A stretch of DNA of 23,554 bases from Pezizomycotina sp. ARF18 (taxonomy: Eukaryota > Ascomycota), in assembly GCA_002224055.1 (NCBI GenBank), contig AZLU01000382.1:1-23554 (forward strand), written 5' to 3'. The translations under genes and the position numbers were made by a program. Under the pieces are notes generated by a model that had not been told where the DNA came from, made no database searches, and saw nothing but the letters and a program-made list of their open reading frames with translations. Positions 13,911-15,989 of this stretch are shown here, in pieces; position 1 is the first letter of the stretch, and each line of letters begins with the position of its first letter.

Positions 13911-15989
13911 ATGGAAGGTACGCAAAACGAAAACCCCCATAGTCCCATCTTTCTTGATTTTGACTCTCGATATCTCTGCGACGCTGTTATTTCTCCGCGG
14001 TTTGTCAGCTATCGCACCTGGCTCGTGCTTGCCAATACTAACTGAATCAAATTACAGACGAAGTTGCCGCTGTACGTGTCCTTTTCGCTACGCCAACATT
14101 TCTTTACCCCGCCCGGATGAATTTAGTTCTTTCTGGAAAGGCATGATCAAAGAGGAAAATTAGTTCAAATCACATAGTCAAAGTACTTGAAGACTTGCTA
14201 ACCAACTCTCTACCTCTAAATCCAGCTCGTTATTGACAATGGATCTGGTAGTAACCCTTTCCTCTTAAAAAAGAAGTTTTTTTTGAGATGAAAGTTACTG
14301 ACCTTACTTTTTTTTCTTATCACAGGAATGTGCAAAGGTGTGTTACAGTTGCCGAGTTTTCCCCCACCTTCGGCTTCCCAATATTTCTCCGCCTGGATTC
14401 CTTCCTTATCCCCTCCCGTTTTACCTTGTTTTCATGAATTTGAAGCTTCGCTAACGTCTTAATTTTGTAGCTGGGTATGTGACTTGTACCACATTCTTCT
14501 CAATAACACGAAGCGAAAAAAACAAAAAAAATGAGAAAGAAGAGAGCCTCTTAGATACCCGAAAGGGTAAAATCATGTCGTTGCTTGCAAACTAATTTGA
14601 AATAGTTTCGCCGGCGATGATGCTCCTCGTGCCGTCTTCCCGTCCATCGTTGGACGACCGCGCCATCATGGGTATGTGTTTTCTCCACCAACTTTTTTGT
14701 TTATATGTCCTTATCTTCACTTCCGAGCTTCGGCCTTCTCTCAATTCACCGACTAATACGGGTTACCTGCTGCCTTGCAGTATTATGATTGGTATGGGTC
14801 AGAAGGATTCATATGTTGGTGATGAGGCACAGTCCAAGCGTGGTATCCTCACTCTGAGGTACCCTATCGAGCACGGTGTCGTCACGAACTGGGATGACAT
14901 GGAGAAGATCTGGCATCACACATTCTACAATGAGCTTCGAGTTGCTCCAGAGAACACCCGTGCTCCTTACGGAAGCCCCCATTAACCCGAAGTCGAATCG
15001 CGAGAAGATGACCCAAATCGTCTTCGAGACGTTCAATGCGCCGGCATTCTATGTTTCCATCCAGGCTGTGCTGTCTCTTTACGCCTCCGGTCGTACCACT
15101 GGTATCGTCCTCGACTCTGGCGATGGTGTCACCCACGTTGTCCCATTTACGAAGGATTCGCTCTTCCTCACGCCATCTCTCGTGTCGATATGGCCGGTCG
15201 TGACCTGACGGACTACCTCATGAAGATCCTGGCTGAGCGTGGTTACACCTTCAGCACCACCGCCGAGCGTGAAATTGTCCGCGATATCAAGGAGAAACTC
15301 TGCTACGTTGCTCTGGACTTCGAGCAAGAAATCCAGACCGCTTCGCAGTCTTCTAGCCTGGAAAAATCCTACGAGTTGCCTGACGGTCAAGTCATCACCA
15401 TCGGCAATGAGCGTTTCCGTGCCCCGAAGCTCTGTTCCAGCCATCTGTCCTCGGTCTTGAATCTGGCGGCATCCACATCACTACCTTCAACTCCATCATG
15501 AAGTGCGACGTCGACGTCAGGAAAGACCTCTACGGCAATATCGTCATGTCTGGTGGTACCACCATGGTAAGTCAAATCACTGACCGATATGCATATGTTT
15601 TCTAGTCATATGTTTCATAGTACATTGATGAGGTCTTACTAACGACCTTTTTCACATTTAAACAGTACCCTGGTATTGCGGACCGTATGCAGAAGGAAAT
15701 CACCGCCCTTGCGCCATCGTCAATGAAGGTCAAGATCATTGCTCCTCCCGAGCGTAATACTCCGTCTGGATCGGTGGTTCCATTCTTGCTTCTCTGTCTA
15801 CCTTCCAGCAAATGTGGATCTCCAAGCAGGAGTACGACGAGAGTGGACCGAGCATTGTCCACAGAAAATGCTTCGTGAGTATTCCCGCCCCGAGAATTTT
15901 CAGATATTGTTTCTATATCAAACTTCCTGTCCATGATTTTGCAATGTTCGTGCGGCCAGTTGCTAACAAGTCATCACATTTTGTAGTAA
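13911..15989 (+). CDS. ACT1: Actin
   Basis: This is conventional actin, the ATP-binding filament protein of cables, patches and ring. Nine exons: 13911-13917 (7 nt), 14058-14071 (14), 14226-14247 (22), 14326-14337 (12), 14471-14474 (4), 14606-14671 (66), 14781-15566 (786), 15666-15874 (209) and 15987-15989 (stop only). They read [60 protein letters not shown] and so on to [11 protein letters not shown]. Exon sizes sum to 1123 nt. Five one-base losses in runs (two near 14952-14959; one each near 15143, 15423 and 15757) bring this to 1128 nt, exactly 375 codons plus stop, the canonical actin length. That arithmetic supports both the micro-exons and the indel explanation. The phosphate loop (DNGSGMCKAG), hinge and nucleotide-binding segments are otherwise intact. 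All introns have canonical GT...AG ends, several with a clear RCTAAC-type branch. The gene is convergent with HIS3. Confidence 0.98.
14471..14474 (+). other. 4-nt micro-exon CTGG of actin
   Basis: CTGG is bounded by a good acceptor (branch gctaac, then ttttgtag) and a good donor (gtatgt). It completes the codons AAA-GCT-GGT between exon 14326-14337 (ending AAAG) and exon 14606 (starting TTTCGCC), giving Lys-Ala-Gly-Phe, which is invariant in actins. Skipping it would delete four bases and break the frame. Confidence 0.93.

Follow-up and report, generated by a model that had tools for sequence, protein, structure and literature searches.

Whether a coding exon of only 4 nt can be an obligatory part of an essential gene is the question raised by the actin locus of Pezizomycotina sp. 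ARF18, in which the bases CTGG stand between two introns in the 5' part of the coding region. The locus lies in the window, by which we mean the whole 23,554-nt stretch of DNA analysed herein, corresponding to contig C382 of a draft assembly of 46.4 Mb in 408 contigs.

Exon map of the actin gene

All GT-AG paths leading from the ATG at 13911 to 14671 with introns of 40-400 nt were enumerated against the 41-residue actin N-terminus as target, and the exact target was encoded by one path only (Table 1). The first-pass annotation had proposed that the first 59 coding bases are spread over 564 bp as five tiny exons of 7, 14, 22, 12, and 4 nt, the last of which restores KAGF; the sole exact path agreed with this map to the base, its count was right, and the restoration of KAGF was borne out, with CTGG supplying the second and third bases of the Ala19 codon and the first two of the Gly20 codon. 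When the target was allowed to differ at as many as two residues and the intron range was widened to 40-450 nt, two paths were obtained, the second being a KGVF form without CTGG. Extending the target to 59 residues yielded 11 paths; the four listed have the first six exons in common and differ in the artificial last piece only. The actins of Pezizomycotina commonly have introns following ATGGAAG and near codon 7.

At the other end of the gene, intron 8 splits the Phe375 codon exactly from the stop, and the last coding exon consists of TAA alone; if intron 8 is left unspliced, the reading frame continues with extra residues past Phe375.

Table 1. Features of the actin gene in the window and 5' exons of the other genes mapped in the draft assembly.
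Feature	Position	Strand	Length and sequence features	Path support
Actin exon 1	13911..13917	+	7 nt, ATGGAAG	sole exact GT-AG path
Actin intron 1	13918..14057	+	140 nt, GTACGC...TTACAG, branch-point match TACTAAC	
Actin exon 2	14058..14071	+	14 nt	sole exact GT-AG path
Actin intron 2	14072..14225	+	154 nt, branch-point match TGCTAAC	
Actin exon 3	14226..14247	+	22 nt	sole exact GT-AG path
Actin intron 3	14248..14325	+	78 nt, branch-point match TACTGAC	
Actin exon 4	14326..14337	+	12 nt, GAATGTGCAAAG	sole exact GT-AG path
Actin intron 4	14338..14470	+	133 nt, donor GTGTGT, acceptor TTGTAG	
Actin exon 5	14471..14474	+	4-nt microexon CTGG	exact-path enumeration, shuffles, two-change enumeration
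Actin intron 5	14475..14605	+	131 nt, donor GTATGT, acceptor AAATAG	
Actin exon 6	14606..14671	+	66 nt	sole exact GT-AG path
Actin intron 6	14672..14780	+	109 nt	
Actin exon 7	14781..15566	+	786 nt as assembled, frame breaks at ~14953, ~15140, ~15421	
Actin intron 7	15567..15665	+	99 nt	
Actin exon 8	15666..15874	+	209 nt as assembled, last sense codon Phe375 at end, frame break at ~15756	
Actin intron 8	15875..15986	+	112 nt	
Actin exon 9, start	15987..15989	+	stop codon TAA	
Beta-tubulin			5' exons 12/24/26/14/68/15 nt	one path
EF-1alpha (L057 on C25)		-	5' exons 5/23/45 nt	one path
Calmodulin (L040 on C227)			5' exons 3/57/16 nt	12 paths; the 4 listed are identical apart from the final 2 target bases
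H4 (C80)			first coding exon 10 nt	
Arp2-like gene			first coding exon 19 nt	
Tubulin-like gene (C278)			first coding exon 12 nt	by eye

Chance tests and splice signals

The gap between AAAG and TTTCGC measures 268 nt. Upon 20,000 dinucleotide-preserving shuffles of the core between these two motifs, the pattern AG-CNGG-GT, flanked by 45 nt or more on either side, arose in 35, and the stricter pattern YAG-CNGG-GTRNGT, which is present in the real sequence, arose in none. Two single internal exons of any size, under the same flank requirement, restored the frame without stops, namely CTGG and a 10-nt exon giving KASLTF, and among three distinct single-intron alternatives that stay in frame, the length was kept by the KGVF form only. 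Skipping of CTGG yields MEDEV...MCKVSPAM...VL with a stop after 42 residues, and retention of intron 4 or intron 5 leads to an early stop as well. The predicted spliced products were AAAGCTGGTTTCGC with CTGG included, AAAGGTGTTTTCGC for the single-intron rival, and AAAGTTTCGC with CTGG skipped.

Being internal and 4 nt long, CTGG falls within the microexons (up to about 30 nt) and within their ultra-short class (15 nt or less), and the introns at its flanks are spliceosomal ones with normal signals, GTGTGT/CGCTAAC/TTGTAG for intron 4 and GTATGT/AACTAAT/AAATAG for intron 5, the branch-point matches lying 16 and 10 nt upstream of the respective intron ends. For comparison, 21 introns from six genes were collected (actin 8, beta-tubulin 6, EF-1alpha 3, calmodulin 2, H4 1, and Arp2-like 1). 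The loose branch-point pattern YTRAY, 6-60 nt before the end, was found in all 21 and is little informative, given a mean of 10.1 of 21 in shuffled introns; CTRAY, 6-36 nt before the end, was found in 20 (shuffle mean 2.9), being absent from beta-tubulin intron 6 only. Actin introns 4 and 5 carried both patterns. With a small donor matrix trained on the 19 introns other than actin introns 4 and 5, the training introns not being held out of the scoring, the training donors scored from 2.8 to 12.1, the weakish donor of intron 4 scored 5.9 (above 5 of the 19), that of intron 5, of middling strength, 8.1, and the donor required by the KGVF form -4.7.

Identity and integrity of the gene

The spliced reading scored 496.4 bits against Pfam Actin over residues 3-375 and, among solved structures, 838.7 bits over residues 1-375 against the best match 8a5d_V and 798.1 bits against 1yag_A; the 375-residue reading was typed by hand with the residues at four frame gaps filled from the actin pattern, and the scores do not test those places. 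Apart from these four supplied places, the matches to Pfam and to the solved actins identified the product as a full-length conventional actin rather than an actin-related protein.

The frame gaps are confined to exons 7-8, which are short by 5 nt in total at four places (Table 1), and each adjoins a run of 2-4 identical bases, weak evidence when taken alone, such runs being common. Exons 1-6 (125 nt) were without gaps, and outside the gaps a single residue, itself beside a gap, differed from the typed reading. Other genes of the assembly were broken likewise: in frame-tolerant alignments, H4 on C66 needed three gaps and EF-1alpha exon 4 needed four (up to two of them due to the chosen ends), and similar frame breaks were read by eye in calmodulin and beta-tubulin. 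Since these other housekeeping genes are also broken, the frame breaks in exons 7-8 are most likely assembly errors; genuine decay would mean that the microexon is no longer under selection. A search of the draft for a second conventional actin found none, the genes on C15, C274, and C394 aligning only distantly and weak matches on C104 and C27 being left out of the comparison, and the gene on C382 is thus apparently single-copy. The names Arp2, Arp4 (the C15 gene being Arp4-like), and alpha-tubulin are presumptive labels of our own.

Residues 19-20 in related proteins

An actin scan of genome contigs returned nine loci (L017-L025), all on records titled as bacteria, and no fungal relative, and the same scan of viral contigs returned no relative. 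Ala19-Gly20, the pair encoded in part by CTGG, was kept in all eight loci that cover it, the ninth (L025) having matched residues 270-375 only, and KAGF was present in both solved actins listed. The flanking residues varied slightly, Lys18 being replaced by His in L022 and Phe21 by Leu or Val in L021 and L024. Within the genome itself, the relative on C15 reads RAGF and that on C274 reads KVGY, the latter indicating that residue 19 is not invariant in actin-related proteins, that is, outside conventional actin. As to the origin of the nine loci, eight lie in MAGs, and the encoded actins are 58-87% identical in the best segment; eukaryotic contamination may account for some of the loci, and L021 and L022, which diverge most, may be of another nature.

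Tiny exons elsewhere in the genome

Tiny 5' exons are no peculiarity of actin, beta-tubulin, EF-1alpha, and calmodulin showing a similar arrangement (Table 1). The first coding exon measured 3-19 nt in seven of nine genes with a readable 5' end, a set chosen by hand and partly by eye rather than as a random sample (actin, beta-tubulin, EF-1alpha, calmodulin, H4 on C80, the Arp2-like gene, the tubulin-like gene on C278, H4 on C66, and the actin-related gene on C394); the last two showed, by eye, no intron near the ATG. This count leaves out the Arp4-like gene on C15, in which an intron seemingly lies just before DEISALV and the position of the start is ambiguous, as well as L032 (C274) and L041 (C52). 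The shortest internal exon mapped in beta-tubulin, EF-1alpha, and calmodulin was 14 nt. Tiny first exons are thus common in the chosen genes of this genome, and it is the internal exon of 4 nt alone that is remarkable.

The actin gene carries 8 introns in 1.125 kb, or 7.1 per kb, a value for one chosen gene and not a genome average; for conserved regions, the part of Stajich et al. available to us gives 0.81-1.16 introns per kb in euascomycetes and at least 2.77 in the ascomycete ancestor (PMC2246297).

Two side observations concern the ends of these genes. The first coding exon of EF-1alpha is ATGGG, and forward EF-1alpha primers starting at the ATG would be split too. That of calmodulin is the ATG alone, and the end of the gene is apparently, by eye, split just before the stop.

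Other features of the window and the genome

Elsewhere in the window, the minus strand carries a GTP cyclohydrolase N-terminal domain and a uracil phosphoribosyltransferase (929-1288 and 4675-5121), which we take to be possibly a uracil-catabolism pair. The remaining features were a WAPL-domain fragment (8955-9569), a PIGO/PIGG membrane region (21315-21641), the RMP1 subunit of RNase MRP (22089-22730), and a tRNA-Gly (ccc) at 23064-23134. Outside the window, a group I intron was located at L016:1894-2173, 47 nt beyond the SSU rRNA match, and the 5.8S copies on C189 are spaced by 10,867 nt or about a multiple thereof.

The ACT-512F primer site

The sequences of ACT-512F and ACT-783R were taken from the available portion of PMC10143427. 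Of the 20 bases of ACT-512F, 2 mismatch the spliced actin. The genomic site of this primer is divided by two introns, as had been claimed beforehand, and only the last 7 primer bases match, at exon 6. The best unspliced match in the window had 6 mismatches and lay at 9366, outside actin, and the genome-wide search at up to 3 mismatches gave three sites (each with 3 mismatches), none of them on C382, the reversed control pattern giving one. ACT-783R matched at 14813 with 3 mismatches. The further claim that this marker should fail here stood in silico, where no near match exists on C382, and as regards PCR it remains a prediction: amplification with ACT-512F would probably miss this gene. Trouble with this primer pair in some fungi, whatever its cause, would not be new, judging from the accessible part of a study of oak powdery mildews, in which ACT-512F/783R apparently yielded multiple bands but no sequence (PMC3076447; the marks of the table are partly lost). 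An actin alignment made with ACT-512F in Xylaria comprised 113 exon and 224 intron characters, and the available part of that paper holds no intron map (PMC11583450).

Alternative explanations

The KGVF form dispenses with the 4-nt exon altogether: exon 4 would be extended by 4 nt to 16 nt (AAAGGTGT, joined to TTTCGC), and one 264-nt intron would run to 14605. This model preserves frame and length and is the sole other path at up to two residue changes, but its donor (GTTACA after TGT) scores under all 19 training donors, it alters both Ala19 and Gly20 against all eight covering relatives and both solved actins, and it leaves the consensus sites around CTGG without explanation. The model was therefore rejected as very improbable on the grounds of its weak donor and of residue conservation. 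A decaying pseudogene, in which the odd exon pattern would have no function, could be suspected from the 5 bases missing in exons 7-8, yet no other conventional actin was found, H4 (C66), EF-1alpha exon 4, calmodulin, and beta-tubulin are broken in the same manner, the gaps adjoin short runs of identical bases (the weak evidence mentioned above), and exons 1-6 are intact, with one gap-adjacent residue deviating elsewhere; we thus give decay hardly any credence.

Regulation of CTGG as a cassette exon, whose skipping would turn actin off by way of an early stop, is quite unlikely in our judgement. Skipping does shift the frame, 4 not being a multiple of 3, and the resulting 42-residue form, the weakish donor of intron 4, and the precedent of a regulated 20-nt microexon in Trichoderma Xlr2, as given in the part of PMC11121469 at hand, would all suit such a switch; against it stand the apparently single-copy state of actin, which is expected to be always needed, and the middling strength of the intron 5 donor. 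Recent insertion of a repeated introner-like element would explain why several introns are packed closely in one gene, but the 870-bp stretch spanning introns 1-6 matched only itself genome-wide at E values up to 1, in a search that skips very common words. Near-identical intron copies elsewhere were thus not found by this query, their absence being unproved on account of the skipped words, and such an origin is disfavoured, with a very slim chance of being correct.

Proposed splicing route

On balance, the results support, with high confidence, the reading of the locus as a conventional ascomycete actin gene with five 5' spliceosomal introns, in which CTGG would be a constitutive, obligatory microexon and introns 4 and 5 would be intron-defined, one of them being removed first. 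Its observed basis consists of the sequence, the fact that one path alone is exact, and the splice signals, and from these we infer inclusion in the mRNA, constitutive use, and the order of removal. Inclusion of CTGG would be obligatory if the locus makes actin, because skipping it or retaining intron 4 or 5 gives an early stop. Each of introns 4 and 5 holds a full set of signals, and intron definition is their most likely mode of recognition. Only 4 nt separate the acceptor of intron 4 from the donor of intron 5, and the two sites probably cannot be occupied simultaneously; therefore one flanking intron would have to go first, whereby CTGG would become joined to a longer exon before the other intron is removed.

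In yeast, according to the available part of PMC8378409, introns are recognised through intron definition, with bridging by Prp40; the paper also proposes, in a model that is speculative by its own wording, that PRP-40 allows the intron-definition splicing of microexons too small for exon definition. By analogy, this fungus would also splice by intron definition. The earlier argument that exons this small are hard for exon-definition splicing is weakened by the use of intron definition in yeast and by the shortness of introns 1-5 (78-154 nt).

A bolder version, in which CTGG is obligatory in the sole actin gene, the order of intron removal is forced and fixed, and inclusion or its failure could set actin output via nonsense-mediated decay, is a tentative and rather unlikely proposal; if it were true, the 4-nt coding exon concerned would be smaller than any fungal exon met in the literature searched. 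Under the favoured reading of CTGG as a constitutive microexon, the locus would offer a natural test of how a spliceosome probably working by intron definition handles, in an essential gene, two splice sites that are separated by 4 nt.

Comparison with known microexons

A search of open-licence literature, covering titles and the starts of abstracts, with most subscription papers lying outside it, found neither a fungal actin microexon nor any 4-nt fungal exon, nor a map of fungal actin intron positions. The closest likeness was found in land plants. As described in the accessible part of PMC8831610, their microexons, which include the 1-nt exons of APC11 and VPS55, resemble CTGG in their length of a few bases, which need not be divisible by 3, in having ordinary splice sites, and in being needed for a conserved protein. 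The plant microexons were confirmed by RNA-seq and RT-PCR and are conserved across species; the exon described here is a predicted one, and it lies in a fungal actin. According to the same source, they are mostly absent from annotation. A gene-finding program would probably miss an exon such as CTGG as well, and the locus illustrates that, in an intron-rich ascomycete, a conserved gene can defeat gene finders and universal fungal primers; if ultra-short exons are missed in fungi as often as in plants, more may await discovery.

Among fungi, Xlr2 of Trichoderma virens likewise has a microexon in a filamentous ascomycete, but it is a glucose-regulated exon of 20 nt in a transcription factor, whereas CTGG has 4 nt and lies in a housekeeping actin, where its use is presumably constitutive (PMC11121469, in the part available, which also mentions that microexons were tested in Schizosaccharomyces pombe). 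The P450 genes of Phanerochaete chrysosporium share with the present gene very small exons in an intron-rich setting, and they differ in belonging to one gene family of a basidiomycete, with a shortest exon of 6 bp in the portion of PMC1184071 at hand. Within the same genome, beta-tubulin, EF-1alpha, and calmodulin have first exons of 12, 5, and 3 nt and the same type of signals as actin, but none of their internal exons is shorter than 14 nt. Microexons as a kind are thus already known, and the CTGG exon is, at the level of sequence, a well-supported and real member of that kind, unusual in its size.
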